A DNA stretch of 64,000 nucleotides from Pseudomonas sp. GGS8. Lineage in GTDB: Bacteria; Pseudomonadota; Gammaproteobacteria; Pseudomonadales; Pseudomonadaceae. The stretch's first letter is position 1, and each line of letters opens with the position of its first letter. This document shows, one piece after another, positions 48,111 through 61,485 of this stretch. The notes under the pieces were generated by a model, which worked only from the letters and a program-made list of their open reading frames with translations, did not search any database and was not told the DNA's origin. The position numbers and the translations under genes were made by a program. The stretch lies in NCBI RefSeq assembly GCF_024168645.1, contig NZ_JALJWF010000001.1:3909501-3973500 (forward strand), in the 5' to 3' direction.

Positions 48111-49274
48111 ATGTACCGCTTCTTCGAACAGCTCAGTTCACGCATCGCCGCGCCCTTCATGGGTGAGCGTTCGCGCAACAGCAAGGTCTGGCATTGTCGC
48201 TGCGGGCAGTCGCTGTTCTTTCGCAACAGCCAGTGCCTGGCCTGTTCGGCGGCACTGGGCTATCAGCCGCAGCAAAGTCGCTTGTCATCGCTGCAACCCG
48301 GCCCGCAAGCGGATACCTGGTTGCTCGATGCCGACCCTGACGCCGGTATTTTCCGCCGTTGCGCCAATCTCGATTCCCCGGCTGCGTGCAACTGGTTATT
48401 GCCGGCCAATCATCACGATGGGTTGTGCATCGCCTGTAGCCTGAATCGCACCATCCCCGACCTGTCGATTCCCGAGAATCACGAACGCTGGCGCAAAGTG
48501 GAAACCGCCAAGCGTCGTCTGGTGGCGCAGTTGCTCAGCCTGGGCTTGCAGGTCATTCCCAAAACGGTGGACGAAGGGGCTGGTCTGGCCTTCGATTTCA
48601 TCGGTATCGACCTCGAAGGCAAGCCGCCGACCACCGGGCACGCCAACGGCCTGATCACCCTCGATATCAAAGAAGCCGACGACGCCCACCGCGAGCAGGT
48701 TCGCGTGCAGATGCACGAACCCTATCGCACGCTGCTCGGTCACTTTCGGCACGAGACAGGGCATTACTACTGGGACCGACTGATCGCCAACAGTGCCTGG
48801 CTGGAACCGTTCCGCGGCCTGTTCGGCGACGAGCGTGCCAGCTACGCCGAGGCTCTTGAGCAGCATTATCAACAAGGTGCGCCGCTCGACTGGCAGCAAC
48901 ATTACGTCAGCGCCTACGCCACCATGCACCCTTGGGAAGACTGGGCGGAAACCTGGGCTCACTACCTGCACATGATGGATGCGGTGGACACCGCCCTGGG
49001 TTTTGGCATGAGTGTCCAGGAAATGGAGTTCGATTATCAGCCGTTTCCACCCAGTACGCTGTTCGACCCGCAACATCCCGGCGGGCCGGCGTTCCTGTCG
49101 TTCGTCAACGCGTGGATCGAACTGGCCGGCATGCTCAACGAGCTGTCACGCAGCATGGAGCAGCCGGACTTCTATCCGTTCGTCTTGCCGCCGGCGGTGA
49201 TCGCCAGGCTGCACTTCATTCACCTGGTGATCCAGCAAGAGGGCGGCCGGGCGGATGAAGTGTTGGTGCAATAG
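48111..49274 (+). CDS. Putative zinc-binding metallopeptidase (Peptidase_Mx type)
   Basis: 387 aa, cytosolic, no signal peptide. N-terminal zinc ribbon: CRCGQSLFFRNSQCLACSAALGY (about 24-46), with a further C-x2-C (GLCIACSLNRT, near 105-113). The middle holds HETGHYYWDRL near residue 216, an HExxH-like metal site (H-E-T-G-H). C-terminal helices contain WEDWAETWAHYLHMMDAVDTALGFG. Substrate unknown; the gene is conserved between ligA and ffs in pseudomonads. Confidence 0.83.
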   Translation: MYRFFEQLSSRIAAPFMGERSRNSKVWHCRCGQSLFFRNSQCLACSAALGYQPQQSRLSSLQPGPQADTWLLDADPDAGIFRRCANLDSPAACNWLLPANHHDGLCIACSLNRTIPDLSIPENHERWRKVETAKRRLVAQLLSLGLQVIPKTVDEGAGLAFDFIGIDLEGKPPTTGHANGLITLDIKEADDAHREQVRVQMHEPYRTLLGHFRHETGHYYWDRLIANSAWLEPFRGLFGDERASYAEALEQHYQQGAPLDWQQHYVSAYATMHPWEDWAETWAHYLHMMDAVDTALGFGMSVQEMEFDYQPFPPSTLFDPQHPGGPAFLSFVNAWIELAGMLNELSRSMEQPDFYPFVLPPAVIARLHFIHLVIQQEGGRADEVLVQ

Positions 49275-49407: not shown

Positions 49408-49540
49408 GTGAGCGTCGTTATGGTGACCCCATCGGTCCCCCCGCAACGATTACCCGTGAACCTGGTCAGATCCGGAAGGAAGCAGCCACAGCGGGAACAT
49501 TGTGTGCCGGGGTGTGGCTGGTGGGGTTGCCTCCATAACG
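49408..49540 (+). repeat. Left 133-bp direct repeat (ffs), island boundary
   Basis: Identical base for base to 55732-55864, by my reading. The flanks differ at once on both sides (G/A before, A/C after). Confidence 0.92.
49416..49540 (+). ncRNA. ffs: Signal recognition particle RNA (4.5S), upstream copy
   Basis: The 4.5S RNA core is GTGAACCTGGTCAGATCCGG then AAGGAAGCAGCCAC, the conserved SRP domain IV loop that binds Ffh. The ends pair: CGTTATGG (49416-) with CCATAACG (-49540), and GTGACCCC with GGGGTTGC. This copy has the promoter but lacks a terminator: the island begins right after it. Exact ends are inferred from the pairing. Confidence 0.9.
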
Positions 49541-49845
49541 ATTCATTCTTCAGTCATTACAGATGTTTCGTTACCTACCCTTTGATAACGTGTCTGTGAG
49601 TCGCAATACCCCAGCTTTCGCCTCCGAACTCCCCTTTCTGTATATTCTGATTTTTTCTAACTGGATCGCTTTCCCTGAACTTGTGTCTTGAAGTCAGTTT
49701 TTCCGGTTGCGGCTATGTCCTTCTGTTCGTTATTGTGCCGTATTCAGTGCAAGGTGTGCGGCACATGGGTGTTACTTAAGTGCGTTGTTTAACGTGCGTA
49801 GATGCGCTGTCGTTAACGGAGTGCGTTTGGATAGGGGGATAGGGA
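49541..49845 (+). other. Left non-coding part of the island
   Basis: 305 bp with no gene I can support. No terminator follows the upstream ffs copy, so ffs transcription may run through it. A purine-rich ribosome-binding site (GGGGGATAGGG) ends it. Confidence 0.5.
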
Positions 49846-50574
49846 ATGGTGGTTTGCATCACGGAAATAGAAGGTTTCACGGCCGCATTAAGAAATAAGT
49901 ATGTGTCGGAAGCCGGCTTTGATGTATTCGCGGCCATAAAATCCCAAGGCATAACGTTGACATTGCACGTTGGCGATGATCGGCAGTGCAGAGGTGTAGT
50001 AACATTGGCATCCGGTGGGATTGAGTTTTCAGGCCCTGAGAATATCAGAAATGATGCACTGTATTGGTTGGTTTATTTGTTTGGCGCCTCGCTTCTTTAT
50101 ACATCTGAGTACGTTAAGCATATCGAGATCGTGTCGGATGTTGTCAGTATCATTTTCTGTGATGCAAAAAAAACCGATGAAGTAGATGTTCGTAAAAATT
50201 TACATGAATTTGCAATCGGTCTGTTGATGCCCAAACACCAAATTTTAAGTGCTGTAAGGTATTTGGCAGATCAGCATGAGGTGAAGTGGCGTGGTCATGG
50301 CATAATTTACCTAGATTACGAAAGATATAATTACGATACCTACATTACGCTGGTTTCAGAAATTGCAGTTCTGTTTCAGGTTTCTGGTCAGAGAGTTGCC
50401 GACAGGTTGAAAGAATTGGGTGTCTTAAATGACGTTCGCTTTCCTCAGCCATCGTACTGGTCTCAATTTTTAACTGAATCCGAGATCGAAGGTCCAAGGC
50501 GCGTGAGTCTGGAAATTGAGTGCGATAGCGATTTAGACAATGAGCTAGATGAGTTTGATGACGATGATTATTGA
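49846..50574 (+). CDS. ImmA/IrrE-like protein with degenerate metal site
   Basis: 242 aa, AT-rich. The family signature HEFAIGLLMP (120-129) is the usual FAxxLLMP block after the protease helix, and the C-terminal EIAVLFQVSGQRVADRLKELGVL matches the closing helices of ImmA/IrrE proteins. The place where HExxH should be (about 73-82) reads YWLVYLFGAS, so the zinc site is missing: probably a sensor, structural or inactive relative rather than a protease. The acidic tail (EIECDSDLDNELDEFDDDDY) is unusual. First gene of the island; 54 bp before the helicase gene and likely co-transcribed. Confidence 0.72.
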   Translation: MVVCITEIEGFTAALRNKYVSEAGFDVFAAIKSQGITLTLHVGDDRQCRGVVTLASGGIEFSGPENIRNDALYWLVYLFGASLLYTSEYVKHIEIVSDVVSIIFCDAKKTDEVDVRKNLHEFAIGLLMPKHQILSAVRYLADQHEVKWRGHGIIYLDYERYNYDTYITLVSEIAVLFQVSGQRVADRLKELGVLNDVRFPQPSYWSQFLTESEIEGPRRVSLEIECDSDLDNELDEFDDDDY

Positions 50575-50628
50575 ATCGCCGAGTTCCACAACCTGGTTTG
50601 CAATTTAATAGATATATGGCGGTAGTGC

Positions 50629-52584
50629 ATGCGTTCTGAGCATTATGATTTCTCAAACCCTTTATTCTTGCCGATTAGTGCAGAAGTATTTGAGCGTTTA
50701 CTCGCTAGCGGAGAGTCTGAGGTGCTTGAGCAGCTATCTGACGCTGAGCTTGCTGCCGTCCTAGTGATCCAGAATCTCGAGAGTTGCAATAGCGATCAAT
50801 CCAGAGCATTCGCATCTGAACAGATTTTGGCAAAGCTTATTCATTGGGGGAATGAATCCAAATATAAGTCCAGTGAGGTGAGTTTACTGGCGGAGGCGCT
50901 GCGTTTGTTTGATGTTGGTAAACTTCGCAGCGGCTCTCGTTTGCTGCATGGCGAGAATATAGAGCTTCTGCCCGATGATACAGTCAAGTCTCAAGAGTAC
51001 TTACTTCCCAGTGGGGAGTGGGATACGGGGTTCAGGAAGGCATACTTTCTCCGAAATTATGCGTTTAACAGTAGGGTTGTAACGCAGCGCAATCAAGAGT
51101 TATGGCTGTCCAGTGCTCAGGATAAGGTGTTGAGGACTTTTTATGCTAATAGGGATGAGCATCTGCATATTCAGGGTTACGCAGGTATCGGAAAGAGTCA
51201 TCTTATAGGTTCAATGCTTCAGTTTTTGGAAGTCCGTAAGACGCTGGTTCTCGCTAAAACGACCAGCAAGCTAAATGAGCTCAAGCAAAGATCGAAATTA
51301 AGTTTTTTTAACGGGCTCACATTTGAGGTTTTTTCGCGAAAGCTACTAGGCGAAGCAAGGTTTAATAAAGGGTTGATCGACAACAGGGCTTCGGCAGCGC
51401 ACGTAAGTAATACCCTCATTGCAGAAAGGTTGCTTATTGGTCCGTTGAGAGGTTTTTCCCCAGCAGACGTCGTTTCCCTGTGCATGCGGGTATTGGATGC
51501 TTATTGTGAGTCGGCTGATTACAGAATAAGTGAGAAGCACATACCGTTTTTTATGGTGCCTCTTTCTGCTGTAGAAGCAAATGTATTAATAGAGTATTCC
51601 AACCGCATATGGTATTGCGTTGATCCTTCAAATCCCTCAGATTTCGTATTGCCTCTGAGGGGTATGTTTTTGGTAAAGAAGGCCTCTCTTTTAGGTGTTT
51701 CTGTTCCCGCTAGATACACGCATATCCTGATTGATGAGAGTCATGATTTACCTGCATCATTAATGCGGATACTTAAAAAAAGTTCTCAAGTTTTAATTAC
51801 GTTGGGGGATGAGTATCAGCGGTTGAGTGGCCCTGCTTTGAAGAGATCACTTGATGTTCGTCAGAGTGATGTCACATTTTCGGTAAGGTCAGGGGAGAAT
51901 CTTGAGCGTATATTGAATCCGCTTATCCAAGCGCATCCGAATAAGATAAAGTTAGCGTTTGAGGCGTCTAGCGGCGTAAAAATCAACGTGTTTGAGTATT
52001 GCGACCCAATATTTCCGAAGGCGCCATCGACCATCTTAGTCTCTTCCGTATGGGAGAAATTTCAGTGGTTAAAATACCTTGTTGACTCCCAGCAGGACTT
52101 CATACTATTGGGTGACGCCGACGGCTTAATAGAGCTTGCTAAAGCGTGCGTCAGGCTTTATCGAAACGAATCTGCTCAATTCAATCACTCGAACGAAAGG
52201 CCGCATGAGATGCTGTATCAATACTCAACTTGGGATGAGTTGGCAGCTGTTCATAGCAATGATAATGCATTTCTTTGGCTTCAGTCTCAGCTTGCCGATG
52301 GATACAAGGTTTCGGACGTGCCGACATCTGGGCAGTCGCAGAACGCTTCCCAAGGGAAAGCTCATCGTCTGGGGAGGGTGGAGGATGTCGGCAATATGGA
52401 GTTTGAGAGTGTAATGCTTGCTCCTGAACTTTTGAGTTATAGTCGTTGCAAAGATGCTTACGAACTCGATCAAAGGATATGTGCGGTCTACACGGCTGCA
52501 TCCCGTGCAAGGCATGATCTATATATTCCAGGTGATATTGAAGAGTGGTTAAGGTTTCACAGAAATAATTTTTTGTATAGTTGA
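50629..52584 (+). CDS. SF1 (UvrD/Rep-like) helicase, island-encoded
   Basis: 651 aa. Residues 1-165 show no known domain. Walker A GYAGIGKSHLIGS (Lys 189), motif Ia VLAKTTSKLNEL, Walker B ILIDESHDLPASL (Asp 369), motif III ITLGDEYQRLSG with the Q typical of UvrD-like enzymes, and C-terminal motifs EFESVML and VYTAASRARHDLYI. So an ATP-dependent helicase/translocase is predicted. Island codon usage. It is ordered after the IrrE-like gene as in a two-gene operon. The system it belongs to is not one I recognise; Gabija and similar systems also use UvrD-like helicases but have different partners. Confidence 0.8.
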   Translation: MRSEHYDFSNPLFLPISAEVFERLLASGESEVLEQLSDAELAAVLVIQNLESCNSDQSRAFASEQILAKLIHWGNESKYKSSEVSLLAEALRLFDVGKLRSGSRLLHGENIELLPDDTVKSQEYLLPSGEWDTGFRKAYFLRNYAFNSRVVTQRNQELWLSSAQDKVLRTFYANRDEHLHIQGYAGIGKSHLIGSMLQFLEVRKTLVLAKTTSKLNELKQRSKLSFFNGLTFEVFSRKLLGEARFNKGLIDNRASAAHVSNTLIAERLLIGPLRGFSPADVVSLCMRVLDAYCESADYRISEKHIPFFMVPLSAVEANVLIEYSNRIWYCVDPSNPSDFVLPLRGMFLVKKASLLGVSVPARYTHILIDESHDLPASLMRILKKSSQVLITLGDEYQRLSGPALKRSLDVRQSDVTFSVRSGENLERILNPLIQAHPNKIKLAFEASSGVKINVFEYCDPIFPKAPSTILVSSVWEKFQWLKYLVDSQQDFILLGDADGLIELAKACVRLYRNESAQFNHSNERPHEMLYQYSTWDELAAVHSNDNAFLWLQSQLADGYKVSDVPTSGQSQNASQGKAHRLGRVEDVGNMEFESVMLAPELLSYSRCKDAYELDQRICAVYTAASRARHDLYIPGDIEEWLRFHRNNFLYS

Positions 52585-52912
52585 TGGGCGCTGTTGTATT
52601 ATTTGCTAATAATTTACGCTCAATGGTTGAGAGTGACGGGGAAATATAAGTTGGCGACCAGACCCTGTCCCGAAAATACTCAGTCTGATTGCGCCTCTTG
52701 ATTTAGTCATGTTTGTGGGGATGAATACCAAGGATCTCAATCAATAATAGTGTGAGTGCCCCCCCCCCCCCCCCATAAAGCAGCTACGCCTGTTCAGCAA
52801 TCGCTTCACTTCCTTTGCTGTGGTCAATGAGCCACTGCACAGTTTTTTTTGAGAGGCATATATGTACAGTCGTCTAGCTATTAAACTATGAAGATAGGTT
52901 TCTGTTGGTTAA
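52585..52912. other. Non-coding gap between convergent island genes
   Basis: About 330 bp without a supportable gene. It contains an uninterrupted run of 16 C (52759-52774) and is otherwise AT-rich. Confidence 0.6.
52759..52774 (+). repeat. Poly-C tract of 16
   Basis: Sixteen consecutive C residues flanked by GTGAGTG and ATAAAG. Homopolymers this long slip readily. Confidence 0.95.
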
Positions 52913-52957
52913 ATGGCGCTCTCACTCATCGAATGATTGTGAGGGCGCCATCTTTTT
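52913..52957. terminator. Terminator between the convergent island helicase genes
   Basis: ATGGCGC-T-CTCAC-TCAT pairs with ATGA-TT-GTGAG-G-GCGCCAT, followed by CTTTTT on plus. It overlaps the stop region of the minus-strand gene and probably works in both directions. Confidence 0.78.
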
Positions 52958-54830
52958 ACTTGGATTCTTCCAGCTTTATAGTGTGTTGCGATAAGAATTG
53001 TTCGGGTGAGATTTTGAACTCGTTCATTGTTGTTGCTGCGTTTTCCGGGGTGACAAAAACTGGGCCTTGTTGAGAAAGCTTAATGCAGGCGAGGTGGAGT
53101 CCGTGAGCAAGGGCTTTACAACCAGACTCAAGAAGTACGCGCGTACCTTGTGGGTAGTGTGCATCTCGGTCAGATATGAAAACTTTAGCCGCTGTTATAG
53201 GGATTATCCTATCTGCATATACAGGGAAGCTTTCTCTTGCCCATTGAAGGCTGTCATGGAGTTGCCCGCTGTCTCCTTTGTGTAAGGTTTTTTGATTTTC
53301 ATTTTTCACTTCTATTACAAATAGGTGGTTTCCCCAAAACCATATGACATCCGGGCCAACAGAATAGTCTATTTCTGGGCGCGTGGAATCAGCCCCTAGC
53401 GCTTGTCCAAGCTCCATTATAGCTTGTTCCACAGCGCGGAATTTCTGGTTGAAACCTAGCGAGCCTTCTATTTTTGTGGCTTGTATCACTGCTGCGTTGG
53501 CGGGGGAAAACTCTCTAAACCAAGCACAGAATTTTTCTGCTGCTGTCTTCGCTCCTGGGGAGACCGGTTTTCTAGGTGCTGATGGTGGAAGTGCAGCGGA
53601 TCTGCAATAGGTTCTAGCTGCTTGCTGTATCTGCATGGACTCAGCAGGGTCTATGTAGTATGTAATGCGTGAAACGCGTTGTAGATATATGCCCAGTTCT
53701 TCACCCTCTACTTTTGCAAGGTTCAAAGCGGCTCGAAAATTTGGCACAGCCTCTGATGCTCTATTGGCGGCTGCTAATAAGTGGGCTTCACGCTCGCTGT
53801 GTGCAAGTTGGACTTTTGTACTTGAAGGAGTGTGAGGGTTTTTCGGGGCACTGCGAATGCGAGAATTATAGAATTTTTTCCAGCCTGGGTCTCGTGTTAA
53901 GCACTGGTTGATGACTTGTTCGAAAGACGATTTGTGGTCTGCTGTTGACGCTTTGACTAAATCTGCAAGCTCTACAGATAGTTCAAGTTGTGCGCGTGTC
54001 TCATCGGTGAGGGCGCCGAGTACCTCAGTGCGGCCTATGTAGGTTGCCAAGTCTTGGCCAACAAGTAGTATGAGTGCATAGTCTGCATGTGAGCGTACAG
54101 CTCGTCCCATACCTTGCTCGATACGATAGACCGTTTTATTTCTTATCCCGCCAGGCGTGAAAACCATTTGCGCATCGTTTTTGTCTATCAGGTTTTCGCC
54201 GTACGGAACACTATCAATTACCAAAACTCTACAGGCATCGTCCGCCAAATCCACCCCGTCATAACGTTGTGCAAAAACAGCAAACCGTAATCCAGACGTT
54301 GGGTCTTTTAGTTTTTTTACGGCATCGCTGAAGTCATCTCCTGAAAAGAACTTTGCACCTACTGCCTGCCACTCTCGACCAACAGCTTCACTTGAAGTGA
54401 GAACTACAACGTTGTGTTTTTTTGAAAGATCACGGCATAATCCCATTAGATAGTCTCTGTCTAGGTCGGGACTTATTAGCGCCGGGGCCAAGATCATTCT
54501 CTCTCCGAGGCCTTGGTCTGATGGTGGGCAAATTGGTGATAAAGCTGCAGATGGGGCAACTCCGAGCTCTCTTACTAGTAAAGCATCATCTGCGAGGGTC
54601 GCGGACATAAAAAGTCGGTGGTTTGCGTTGTGGTAAGGTCTCAGCAGATGAACTGGGATTATTTCTGGCGAGAGTTCTGCGTGGGTGCCGGATAGCACGC
54701 ATCTGCATAGTTTTAAGTTGTCCTCGAGGAATGACCAAACAAACAAAAAGCTGCTTTCTTCAGAGTAACAATGGAGATTTGTTCTGATTTGTTCTGATTT
54801 GTTCTGATTTCTTCTGATAAGTCTGACCAT
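52956..54830 (-). CDS. Helicase-nuclease, C-terminal fragment (out of frame with N-terminal part)
   Basis: 624 codons. Continues the N-terminal fragment: motif III FMSATLADDALLVREL near 75, helicase C domain with YRIEQGMGRAVRSHADYA (Q-x2-GR-x2-R, XPD/DinG-like). A middle region with TPR-like helices follows (EREAHLLAAANRASEAVPNF). The C-terminal PD-(D/E)XK-type site is GPDVIWFWGNHLFVIEVKNEN (Asp about 493, Glu 507, Lys 509) with a following GQ. It starts with an ATG at 54830 just upstream of the repeat, but without a clear ribosome-binding site, so it probably represents the tail of one 844-aa protein. Confidence 0.78.
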   Translation of the reverse strand: MVRLIRRNQNKSEQIRTNLHCYSEESSFLFVWSFLEDNLKLCRCVLSGTHAELSPEIIPVHLLRPYHNANHRLFMSATLADDALLVRELGVAPSAALSPICPPSDQGLGERMILAPALISPDLDRDYLMGLCRDLSKKHNVVVLTSSEAVGREWQAVGAKFFSGDDFSDAVKKLKDPTSGLRFAVFAQRYDGVDLADDACRVLVIDSVPYGENLIDKNDAQMVFTPGGIRNKTVYRIEQGMGRAVRSHADYALILLVGQDLATYIGRTEVLGALTDETRAQLELSVELADLVKASTADHKSSFEQVINQCLTRDPGWKKFYNSRIRSAPKNPHTPSSTKVQLAHSEREAHLLAAANRASEAVPNFRAALNLAKVEGEELGIYLQRVSRITYYIDPAESMQIQQAARTYCRSAALPPSAPRKPVSPGAKTAAEKFCAWFREFSPANAAVIQATKIEGSLGFNQKFRAVEQAIMELGQALGADSTRPEIDYSVGPDVIWFWGNHLFVIEVKNENQKTLHKGDSGQLHDSLQWARESFPVYADRIIPITAAKVFISDRDAHYPQGTRVLLESGCKALAHGLHLACIKLSQQGPVFVTPENAATTMNEFKISPEQFLSQHTIKLEESK

Positions 54831-55480
54831 ATCCAGTGGGGTACTTCAAATAGTGCTAGGGGGTCGTTTGTTTCTATGTCGGTCCACTTTGTTGAATGGT
54901 GCGCTCTGCACCGAGATTCTAATAGGCGCTTTAAAGATTCAAACGCATCTCCATATACTTGAAGGGTAAATTTTTTTCTGACAATTTCAGCCCCTGCGTG
55001 CGCATCATCTAAGACGATGGCTGTGGGAAGGAGGTTAACGTCTTGACGCAGGAATGTGCTCCTAGAGTTGAAAAGCTTCTCGTAAGTGCAGACTAAAATT
55101 GCATCCCCTCGGACGCATGCGGCGTGTGGATACTTTTCTCCAGATGGGTAATGATAGGCTTCTATTCCTAGCTTTGACGCCTCCTGTAGAACCTGTTCTA
55201 CAAGCTGAATCGTTGGGCATAAATAGATACCGGGTCTTTTTTCTTTCCGCATATGTCCGAGCAAGTAGAGAAGGCCGACTCCAGTTTTACCCGCTCCAGT
55301 GCTTATTTTTAAAACTATATCCTTGTCGTCATGGCGAGCTGTTAGCTCTTGCATTGCCTCCTTTTGAGAAGTGCGCGGTTCCGTATGGGTGCTTTTAACG
55401 TCCAAGGATGAATACAGCTTTAGGAGGTCGTACTCAGTCGCTTCTTTCGCTTTTCCAACCAAACTGCCAAAGTCGATCAT
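54713..55480 (-). CDS. DEAD/DEAH helicase N-terminal fragment (frameshifted at a 10-bp repeat)
   Basis: 255 codons. Q-like RTSQKEAMQEL near 37, Walker A ISTGAGKTGVGLLYLLG near 60, motif Ia LCPTIQLVEQV, Walker B IVLDDAHAGAE (DDAH) near 155. After SDLSEE the frame enters the 10-bp tandem repeat and then reads 36 foreign residues to a stop at 54713, while the true continuation is in another frame. Ribosome-binding site GAGGTAGGG before the ATG at 55480. The enzyme is off in this reading unless slippage restores the frame. Confidence 0.8.
   Translation of the reverse strand: MIDFGSLVGKAKEATEYDLLKLYSSLDVKSTHTEPRTSQKEAMQELTARHDDKDIVLKISTGAGKTGVGLLYLLGHMRKEKRPGIYLCPTIQLVEQVLQEASKLGIEAYHYPSGEKYPHAACVRGDAILVCTYEKLFNSRSTFLRQDVNLLPTAIVLDDAHAGAEIVRKKFTLQVYGDAFESLKRLLESRCRAHHSTKWTDIETNDPLALFEVPHWIWSDLSEEIRTNQNKSEQISIVTLKKAAFCLFGHSSRTT
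54776..54815. repeat. 10-bp tandem repeat at the frameshift
   Basis: Plus strand GATTTGTTCT occurs three times perfectly (54776-54805), then GATTTCTTCT. With one or four perfect copies the two helicase fragments read as one frame without a stop; the present three do not. Confidence 0.92.
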
Positions 55481-55483
55481 GGT

Positions 55484-55731
55484 GTCCCTACCTCATATCA
55501 GTTAACCCGTCGGTCCATGCCCTTGCGAGAGTGGTAAGGCCCGTAGCGGTGGGAGATTCTGACGCTAGCTGAGTGGGACGCCCTGTGCAATGTTAGGTAG
55601 CCATGACTGACGCAAAAGTAGATATATAAGTGGTGCAAACGGCTTGCCTGAGCTGCCTCCACTCGCGGTAAATTTAGTCAAATTAACATCTGCGTGGTGG
55701 GGAAAATCGCTTGAAGCTCTTCTGGTGCCTA
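55484..55731. other. Right non-coding part of the island
   Basis: 248 bp that must hold the promoter of the minus-strand helicase gene. I see no other gene, no integrase remnant and no ffs promoter. Confidence 0.5.
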
Positions 55732-55864
55732 GTGAGCGTCGTTATGGTGACCCCATCGGTCCCCCCGCAACGATTACCCGTGAACCTGGTCAGATCCGGA
55801 AGGAAGCAGCCACAGCGGGAACATTGTGTGCCGGGGTGTGGCTGGTGGGGTTGCCTCCATAACG
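55732..55864 (+). repeat. Right 133-bp direct repeat (ffs), island boundary
   Basis: Identical to 49408-49540. Confidence 0.92.
55740..55864 (+). ncRNA. ffs: Signal recognition particle RNA (4.5S), downstream promoterless copy
   Basis: Full-length and identical to the upstream copy, including the Ffh-binding loop. No -35/-10 boxes precede it; a terminator hairpin follows directly. It would be transcribed only from island read-through. Confidence 0.85.
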
Positions 55865-56032: not shown

Positions 56033-56347
56033 TTAAGGCTTGGACAAGGCCTGGTCAACCGCTGCGATCAGCTTTCCCAGATCCTTCGGGGTGGCTTTGT
56101 GTATGACGCTGAACAGGTACGCCCGCTGTTCATCTTCGTCGCCCATATCTGCGAAAAAGGCTTTCAGCTTCACACCCAGCACATCGGCAAGCAGGAACAA
56201 TGCTTCCACGCTGGGGGTATAGGTGCCAGTTTCGAAGCGGCTGATGGTTTTGGGGTCAAAACCGGTTTTTTCGCCGAGTTCAGCCTGAGTAAGCCCTGCG
56301 ACCTTGCGGTAGCGTCGGATGGCTGGACCCAAACTTGAAATTTGCAT
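56033..56347 (-). CDS. Xre-family helix-turn-helix regulator
   Basis: 104 aa. HTH at 10-62 (IRRYRKVAGLTQAELGEKTGFDPKTISRFETGTYTPSVEALFLLADVLGV), then a short C-terminal helix. Normal GC and codon use, outside the ffs repeats, so I count it as resident rather than part of the island. Target unknown. Confidence 0.87.
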   Translation of the reverse strand: MQISSLGPAIRRYRKVAGLTQAELGEKTGFDPKTISRFETGTYTPSVEALFLLADVLGVKLKAFFADMGDEDEQRAYLFSVIHKATPKDLGKLIAAVDQALSKP

Positions 56348-59376: not shown

Positions 59377-61485
59377 ATGAGTTATCAGGTTCTTGCACGT
59401 AAATGGCGCCCGCGCTCGTTCCGCGAAATGGTCGGCCAGACCCATGTGCTCAAGGCTCTGATCAATGCCTTGGACAGCCAGCGGCTGCACCACGCCTACC
59501 TGTTTACCGGTACTCGTGGGGTCGGCAAGACCACCATCGCGCGGATCATCGCCAAATGCCTGAACTGTGAAACAGGTATCACTTCGACCCCTTGCGGCGA
59601 GTGCTCGGTGTGCCGCGAAATCGATGAAGGCCGCTTCGTCGACCTGATCGAGATCGACGCCGCGAGCCGGACCAAGGTCGAAGACACCCGCGAACTGCTC
59701 GACAACGTGCAGTACGCGCCGAGTCGCGGGCGCTTCAAGGTCTACCTGATCGACGAAGTGCACATGCTCTCCAGCCATTCCTTCAATGCGCTGTTGAAAA
59801 CCCTCGAAGAGCCGCCGCCCTACGTCAAGTTCATCCTGGCCACCACTGATCCGCAGAAACTTCCGGCAACGATTCTTTCGCGGTGCCTGCAGTTCTCCCT
59901 GAAGAACATGACCCCGGAGCGGGTGGTCGAGCATTTGAGCCATGTGCTGAGCGTCGAGAACGTGCCGTTCGAAGACGACGCGTTATGGTTGCTGGGTCGC
60001 GCCGCCGACGGCTCGATGCGCGACGCCATGAGCTTGACCGACCAGGCCATCGCCTTCGGTGAAGGCAAGGTTCTGGCCGCCGACGTGCGGGCGATGCTCG
60101 GCACCCTCGATCACGGCCAGGTCTACGACGTCCTGCATGCGTTGATCGAAGGCGACGCCAAGGCGTTGCTCGAAGCCGTGCGCCATCTGGCCGAGCAAGG
60201 CCCGGACTGGAATGGCGTACTCTCGGAAATTCTCAACGTGTTGCACCGTGTCGCCATTGCCCAGGCCCTGCCCGAAGGCGTCGACAACGGCCATGGCGAC
60301 CGTGATCGCGTATTGGCGCTGGCCCAGGCGCTGCCGGCCGAAGATGTGCAGTTCTATTACCAGATGGGCCTGATCGGTCGCCGGGATTTGCCGCTGGCGC
60401 CGGATCCGCGCGGCGGCTTCGAAATGGTCCTGCTGCGAATGCTCGCATTCAGGCCAGCAGACACCGAGGACGCTCCGAGGCAACCGCTAAAGCCAGTGGG
60501 GATCAGCCAGGCCACAGTTGATTCCGCAAACTCAGTGGCTGCCGCGCCGATTGTTGCGCCGGTAGTCTCTGCGGTCGTGGCACCGGTTCCCGTTGCGCCG
60601 GTGGTTGCACCAGCGCCTGTCCCTGCCGTTGCGCCCGAGCCAGTCGCGCCGGTGGTCGTGCCCGAGTCCGAGCCAGTGGTCGAGCCAGTGGTCGAGCCTG
60701 TAGCGGTCGAAGAAGTCGTCGATCTGCCCTGGAACGATCCGGTAGAGCCCGAGGTTGCCCAGCAGCCCGCCGTCGAGCCGGTGCTGGAGACGGCCGGTGA
60801 GCAACCCGAATTGCCTCCGATGCCCATGCCAACGCCGGACAGCGTGGTGCCGGACGCGCCGGACGCTCCTGAATGGACCGTTGCGTCGATCCCGGAACCG
60901 TCCGTGGCCCAAGTCGATGCCGCCACGCCGGGCATGGACCTGGACGACGAGCCGCCGCTGGACGAGGACTACATCGAGCCGGACATGGATTCGGCCTACA
61001 GTTACCTCGATGATCTGGCCAGTGAGCACACCGCTGAACCTGCGGCGGAGCCCGAGCCGGAACCGGCCGCGATGCCGGCCACTGGCCTGGCCCTGCAATG
61101 GCTGGAGTTGTTCCCGAAATTGCCGGTGTCCGGCATGACCGGCAGCATCGCCGCCAACTGCACGCTGATCGCCGTCGATGGCGACAATTGGCTGTTACAT
61201 CTGGACCCGGCCCACAGCGCCCTGTTCAACGCGACGCAACAACGTCGCCTCAACGATGCGCTGAACCAGCACCACGGGCGTACGCTGACCCTGAGCATCG
61301 AGCTGATCAAGCCTGAGCAGGAAACCCCGGCCCAGGCGGCGTCCCGGCGTCGTGCCGACCGTCAGCGCGAGGCCGAGGAGTCGATCCATGGCGATCCGTT
61401 CATCCAGCAAATGATGCAGCAGTTCGGGGCGGTGGTCCGTCACGATACTATTGAACCTGTCGAGGCCCTGGTCAGTCAGGGCTAA
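59377..61485 (+). CDS. dnaX: DNA polymerase III subunits gamma/tau
   Basis: 702 aa clamp-loader ATPase. MSYQVLARKWRPRSFREMVGQ; Walker A GTRGVGKTT near 45; zinc site CLNCETGITSTPCGECSVC; Walker B LIDEVHML near 125; sensor 1 LATTDPQKLP. A long Ala/Pro/Val/Glu linker (about 375-560) is followed by the C-terminal tau domain binding DnaB and the polymerase. No A-rich slippery site is obvious, so gamma may come from proteolysis or not be made. ATG at 59377. Confidence 0.95.
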   Translation: MSYQVLARKWRPRSFREMVGQTHVLKALINALDSQRLHHAYLFTGTRGVGKTTIARIIAKCLNCETGITSTPCGECSVCREIDEGRFVDLIEIDAASRTKVEDTRELLDNVQYAPSRGRFKVYLIDEVHMLSSHSFNALLKTLEEPPPYVKFILATTDPQKLPATILSRCLQFSLKNMTPERVVEHLSHVLSVENVPFEDDALWLLGRAADGSMRDAMSLTDQAIAFGEGKVLAADVRAMLGTLDHGQVYDVLHALIEGDAKALLEAVRHLAEQGPDWNGVLSEILNVLHRVAIAQALPEGVDNGHGDRDRVLALAQALPAEDVQFYYQMGLIGRRDLPLAPDPRGGFEMVLLRMLAFRPADTEDAPRQPLKPVGISQATVDSANSVAAAPIVAPVVSAVVAPVPVAPVVAPAPVPAVAPEPVAPVVVPESEPVVEPVVEPVAVEEVVDLPWNDPVEPEVAQQPAVEPVLETAGEQPELPPMPMPTPDSVVPDAPDAPEWTVASIPEPSVAQVDAATPGMDLDDEPPLDEDYIEPDMDSAYSYLDDLASEHTAEPAAEPEPEPAAMPATGLALQWLELFPKLPVSGMTGSIAANCTLIAVDGDNWLLHLDPAHSALFNATQQRRLNDALNQHHGRTLTLSIELIKPEQETPAQAASRRRADRQREAEESIHGDPFIQQMMQQFGAVVRHDTIEPVEALVSQG

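Follow-up and report, generated by a model that had tools for sequence, protein, structure and literature searches.

An ImmA/IrrE-derived protein and an SF1 helicase form a candidate defence module on an insertion at the SRP RNA gene ffs of Pseudomonas sp. GGS8, next to a frame-split relative of Hna

The window analysed here is a stretch of 64,000 nucleotides from Pseudomonas sp. GGS8, whose genome of 6.7 Mb is available as a single contig. The genus agrees with Rfam matches in the window (sRNA P11, rmf, and narK) and with the named organisms that harbour kin of its genes. It contains an island of about 6.2 kb (positions 49541..55731), which is exactly the DNA flanked by two perfect direct repeats of 133 nt. 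The first repeat (49408..49540, + strand) and the second repeat (55732..55864, + strand) are 100% identical and each harbours a complete ffs gene (49430-49526 and 55754-55850, respectively; Rfam RF00169, 75.3 bits in both cases). A preliminary description of this DNA had placed the block behind ffs, which is correct for the first copy, but had named one ffs only and overlooked the second. The G+C content is 43-48% inside the island and mostly 53-67% in flanking 1-kb windows. Pfam assigns a putative zinc metallopeptidase gene (48111-49274) as the left neighbour and dnaX (59377-61485) to the right side, confirming an AT-rich 6.2-kb block between these housekeeping genes. A gene for a 104-aa protein of the Cro/C1-type HTH family (56033-56347) adjoins the distal ffs, and similar genes belonging to the same cluster (c3) are found at other ffs sites. 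Within the island, a 242-aa ImmA/IrrE-derived protein without HEXXH (49846..50574, + strand) is followed by a 651-aa SF1 helicase of the UvrD/PcrA/FBH1 type (50629..52584, + strand) and, in convergent orientation, by a helicase-nuclease consisting of an SF2 helicase and a PD-(D/E)XK nuclease (52956..55480, - strand), which is referred to as the hna relative. The degenerate ImmA/IrrE-like protein reported earlier is borne out by the missing HEXXH and by profile kinship to PF06114, as is the UvrD-like helicase, which occupies one open frame and has the SF1 motifs. The convergent helicase with its PD-(D/E)XK site is present as well, but it is split in two frames. The statement that the block holds only nucleic-acid enzymes applies to the helicase and the helicase-nuclease but not to the IrrE-like protein, which does not belong to this class of enzymes.

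The block is an insertion at ffs, the SRP RNA gene. In the relative G005, the one genome in which occupied and empty sites were compared, the match of the left flank extends to 4652074 and that of the right flank begins at 4652080 on the same strand. Since G005 has one ffs with adjoining flanks, the window has gained 6,324 bp and now possesses ffs twice. A search of the island for relics of 25 ffs-island integrases or resolvases found none at E <0.05 (best E 0.06). The island probably descends from an integrase-bearing ffs element and has since lost its own integrase, in which case its exit would require recombination between the repeats or help from elsewhere.

Tn7-like elements occur near ffs. 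More generally, ffs is an island site in Pseudomonas: 393 of 398 genomes have an ffs match and 36 of the 398, the window genome included, have at least two matches (E 0.001), i.e., a second full or partial ffs, a count taken by hand from the match table. For the 35 other genomes, the second copy is over the Rfam cut-off in 15 and weaker in 20. The survey of repeats covered 30 of these 35 genomes together with the loci L036, L014, L060, and the window, giving 34 stretches, 33 of them distinct as L060 is the same locus as L179. Left aside were G169, G178, G270, and G304, whose ffs copies lie on separate contigs or at a distance of 4.3 Mb, and L134 (from G243), a locus that ends before the second ffs copy. 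Some of the repeat-bounded stretches surveyed measure just 1-2.5 kb and are perhaps no islands. The repeats form three classes. In the first, the distal copy begins near ffs position 31-35 and the repeats comprise 66-90 nt. In the second, it begins at position 10-23 and the repeats comprise 92-135 nt. In the third, the distal copy is complete or nearly so, as in the window (133 nt), L169 (131 nt), L036 (149 nt), L170 (112 nt), and L171, where the repeat extends over about 200 nt at 85%. The repeat of L014 measures 47 nt only. A tyrosine-integrase forming one cluster is encoded in 25 of the 34 stretches and a serine-resolvase, again of one cluster, in 24 of the 34, the identity of these clusters being based on Pfam (Phage_integrase and Resolvase) for one checked member each.

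Several of these islands have defence-type cargo. Nine large proteins, picked by eye from 54 listed (integrase cluster excluded), were compared with PADLOC along with one integrase, and eight of the nine cargo proteins gave matches (E 1e-5). These are Dsr1, HamB of Hachiman, RT-Protease XI, PDC-M36A, PDC-M60A, a partial AriA-like, a partial TmtA-like, and a weak REase match (7e-6). A 791-aa cargo protein of the L178 island had no PADLOC match. The islands L131, L137, L173, L175, L182, and L178 carry Dsr1, RT-Protease XI, PDC-M36A, TmtA-like, PDC-M60A, and HamB cargo. The earlier idea that the position behind ffs would suit defence cargo agrees with these matches, as ffs islands can carry known defence genes. 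Because such islands recur with defence-type cargo, the neighbourhood of ffs could be a place to look for new systems. The words ffs, SRP, and Hna are absent from the main text of PMC10250203 and PMC12629846.

A Pfam search with the ImmA/IrrE-derived protein of the window alone gave no PF06114 match. Its kinship to this family was recognized with a profile of four full-length members, for which 39 of 43 matches bear PF06114; 20 of those 39 proteins also bear PF04471 (Mrr_cat). The member encoded at L080 itself matches PF06114 at 7.9e-4, below the cut-off. In the window protein, the metal site is degenerate (LVYLFGAS, 50068-50091, + strand) and a C-terminal RGHGIIYLD (50290-50316, + strand) is conserved. 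HEXXH is absent from all 12 SF1-linked members (0/12), that of the window included. Alignment reveals a series of site loss, from HEIGH through HCIGH, CLIGH, LLGAA, and LFGAS to proteins in which the N-terminal part is missing, and the 12 SF1-linked members comprise three of 235-244 aa and nine of 91-168 aa. The aligned sequences point to a peptidase that decays stepwise to a C-terminal remnant. As the C-terminal region is kept while the peptidase core decays and vanishes, this region might be what the helicase needs. The predicted structure of the window protein is a low-confidence model (pLDDT 63) with no fold match, and PADLOC returned no match for it.

The SF1 helicase displays motifs I, II, III, and VI, including the Walker A (51175-51198), the DES box (51730-51750), GDEYQ (51805-51819), and SRA (52495-52512), all on the + strand, and these motifs are invariant in an alignment of 33 sequences. 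Structure prediction, which the preliminary description had proposed, gave a fold closest to FBH1, PcrA, and UvrD, with low TM-scores of 0.3-0.4 and an rmsd of 6-9 over the whole chain. Its best PADLOC match covers the Walker region only (PDC-S53, 1.4e-6). When 10 proteins near SF1 loci that lie away from ffs or bear a partner were picked by eye and compared with PADLOC, four had no match. At locus L040 an ImmA-type partner and another small protein are both present. On a P. aeruginosa conjugative plasmid (L221, 536-5662), a UvrD/GajB-like helicase, partners of 93 aa and 121 aa, and SF1 are encoded in a row, with an integrase at a distance of about 2 kb. Pseudomonas plasmids, for example NZ_CP015601.1, also frequently encode a second SF1 subfamily with 28-34% identity, and no ImmA-type partner was found for it in 20 loci read.

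The ImmA/IrrE-like gene and the SF1 helicase gene constitute one module. A profile of the partner matches in 16 of the 398 Pseudomonas genomes, and all 12 of the strong, non-fused matches (E up to 2e-30) precede SF1 by 36-135 nt on the same strand. Three further matches (E 1e-16 to 1e-19) are proteins of 425-426 aa with PF06114 over the cut-off and, in all three, an intact HELGH; Mrr_cat is over the cut-off in one, just under it in another, and not found in the third, and no SF1 (E 1e-20) was detected in the genomes encoding them. The remaining match is weak (7.9e-4). One stop inside the matched partner stretch is reported for G135, G232, and G339, and the open frames were read for G135 and G232. 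Full-length pairs are also located 0.8-1.3 kb after tRNA-Leu (L005, L006) and, at L080, directly after a Dus gene and an integrase. The set of loci and the set of 398 genomes overlap in species and are not independent samples, L225, for example, being the L080 locus. A clear pairing rule emerges, according to which ImmA without its metal site goes with the helicase and intact ImmA with an Mrr-like part. Proteins with an intact ImmA-type peptidase and an N-terminal Mrr-like part are encoded at L235 (8075-9352), L236 (7184-8461), and L237 (8032-9312), and this Mrr-like-ImmA protein is possibly a one-protein defence gene.

The SF1 helicase and its small partners might instead serve the mobile element in replication, recombination, or stability of an island or plasmid, and not defence. 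We regard this as unlikely, though deserving serious attention. Among plasmid records, 156 contain a match to relatives of SF1; 146 of these are from Pseudomonas, and 43 of the 156 are typed as conjugative. The closest plasmid SF1 (38%) is encoded together with both small partners on a conjugative plasmid of the MOBH type, where a phage-type integrase lies at a distance of about 2 kb. The pair at L080 follows an integrase, and the plasmid abundance of the 28-34% SF1 subfamily would fit a role in upkeep of the element. However, an integrase of the L036 type is matched at only 5 of 80 SF1 loci, and the settings of the pair vary (ffs, the vicinity of tRNA-Leu, a Dus gene with another integrase, a plasmid), as would be expected of cargo more than of an element-specific part.

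Alternatively, SF1 could be a helicase that Pseudomonas uses for repair or replication, resident at a fixed position between ffs and dnaX and accompanied by small regulators. Its loci do concentrate there, 67 of 80 following ffs within 6 kb on the same strand and 53 of 80 preceding dnaX by at most 8 kb, and its predicted fold resembles FBH1, PcrA, and UvrD. As SF1 stands without an ImmA-type partner at 60 of the 80 loci, of which 36 encode just another small protein and 24 neither kind of partner, and is at ffs in 67, it could be a resident DNA-repair gene. Against this, no more than 131 of 398 genomes encode any member of the family (E 1e-20). The copy in the window is AT-rich, is part of an insertion, and has at best 48% identity to its nearest kin among the 80 loci, and full-length pairs are also situated away from ffs. 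We consider a resident helicase quite improbable.

A sister element, L036 from P. nabeulensis E10B, has two full ffs copies in its 149-nt repeat, and between them are genes for an integrase, a partner of 128 aa, SF1, and a resolvase, together with an intact hna of 837 aa. Its Hna-like protein has 90% identity to one half of the window gene and 92% to the other (77% at the DNA level), whereas the SF1 proteins are only 40% identical. The spacing from hna to the distal ffs is 245-251 nt in the two elements, and the distal arm of the window (55481..55731) is homologous to that of L036 (z 8.5 in a global alignment against 500 single-letter shuffles). By these sequence comparisons, the window island has its distal part in common with L036 and a different pair in its proximal part.

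By homology, the helicase-nuclease of the window is related to Hna, an abortive-infection system that consists of one gene and is already described, for which Sather and coworkers are said to have provided the founding paper in 2023. Its two frames (54713-55480 and 52956-54830) are both covered by PADLOC PDC-S28 (E 5.9e-171 and 2.1e-69), and the intact L036 protein matches the Hna of PDB 10UJ/9YKJ over residues 4-760 (E 1.2e-104). Among the papers searched, PDC-S28 is mentioned by name in one. According to passages of PMC13381803, the latter is Hna of Sinorhizobium meliloti, acts as a single gene in defence, and needs K729 for cleavage. This K729 aligns with the lysine of EVK, GPD is aligned too, and both nuclease motifs are present in the window (GPD 53349-53360, EVK 53304-53315, - strand). 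The frames part at a 10-nt tandem repeat (54776..54818; TRF, three-frame reading), which consists of 4.3 copies of GATTTGTTCT, and all three frames are open through the tract. As sequenced, the split between frames would leave no full-length protein. Since the unit length of 10 nt is not divisible by three and three frames are open, the tract would suit a slippage switch, and changes in the number of units could turn hna on and off; if true, the repeat would be an on/off switch for a costly abortive-infection gene. The tract is absent from the intact L036 copy and, among the loci compared, is seen in the window genome only, so that switching is a conjecture and a one-off expansion or an assembly error is possible. 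A C16 tract (52759..52774; homopolymer scan), the only homopolymer of at least 9 in the 64 kb, lies between the convergent SF1 and hna stops and might be a second slippage tract or a sequencing artefact.

That all three genes form one defence system, as proposed in the preliminary description, is highly improbable. In its favour, two ffs copies enclose hna, SF1, and an ImmA-type partner in both the window and L036. However, SF1 is not matched within 1 Mb on the same contig in any of the 12 other Pseudomonas genomes with PDC-S28, and among the 12 strong pairs only that of the window is in a genome that also has a PDC-S28 match, the other 11 genomes having none. Moreover, Hna works as a single gene as stated in part of PMC13381803. 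From that proposal, the linkage of the IrrE-like and SF1 genes survives the co-occurrence search (12 of 12 across the 398 genomes), while the helicase-nuclease has to be separated from them. Likewise, the expectation that no described system would be matched fails for the helicase-nuclease but stands for the pair, which PADLOC does not name and for which no description was found among literature titles. The hna relative has only the carrier in common with the pair, in the window as in L036, and the island thus carries two separate modules, the described defence gene hna now being set apart from the candidate pair.

Our preferred reading, which we hold with moderate confidence, is that of two modules on an ffs insertion, a pair likely directed against phages or incoming DNA and an hna relative split between frames. 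The ImmA-derived protein would be a docking or sensing subunit, acting through its C-terminal RGHGxIYxD...N and not by proteolysis, and the SF1 helicase would load on single-stranded or forked invader DNA and strip or unwind it; a nuclease domain was found in neither protein. Hna, Hachiman, Nhi, and others respond to phage SSB, as reported in a section of PMC13381803, and a helicase that loads on single strands could act on the same intermediates as such SSB-responding systems. In its boldest form, which we find plausible but slightly short of probable, the proposal is an unrecognised two-gene immune system, in which an ImmA/IrrE peptidase, after losing first its metal site and later two thirds of its body, is now dedicated to an FBH1-like SF1 helicase as its partner; the system travels with a switchable hna on islands that use and copy the whole SRP RNA gene.

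Compared with known systems, the window protein shares with ImmA/IrrE metallopeptidases (PF06114) the profile kinship and the C-terminal region around IYLD and N, but has lost HEXXH and the glutamate ligand. Unlike Mrr-ImmA fusions, it has no Mrr-like part and is coupled to an SF1 helicase. An ImmA/IrrE peptidase is present in one E. coli defence system, as mentioned in part of PMC9519451. The SF1 helicase differs from the SF1A helicases UvrD/PcrA/Rep and FBH1 by a distinct N-terminal part, some 150 residues long and hardly covered by the matches listed, and by the small partner genes upstream. With Gabija (GajAB), the pair has in common a UvrD-like helicase encoded beside a partner, but the GajB match of the window SF1 is weak and confined to the Walker region (E 0.0012), and Pfam and PADLOC detect no GajA-like gene among the island proteins. 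Hna and its intact L036 relative have the same domain order and a similar length (845 and 837 aa), whereas the window copy is in two frames at the 10-nt repeat and is situated in an ffs island beside another helicase module. Finally, Pseudomonas tmRNA islands with integrase and defence cargo, namely I23, I44, and I55, are described in passages of PMC12595487. The ffs islands differ from them in their site, ffs, and in repeats of mostly 66-149 nt that can contain the whole gene, and the window island differs in having no integrase; nevertheless, as far as those passages of PMC12595487 describe them, both kinds of islands have in common a tyrosine integrase, direct repeats at an RNA gene, defence cargo, and a gene content free of transfer genes.
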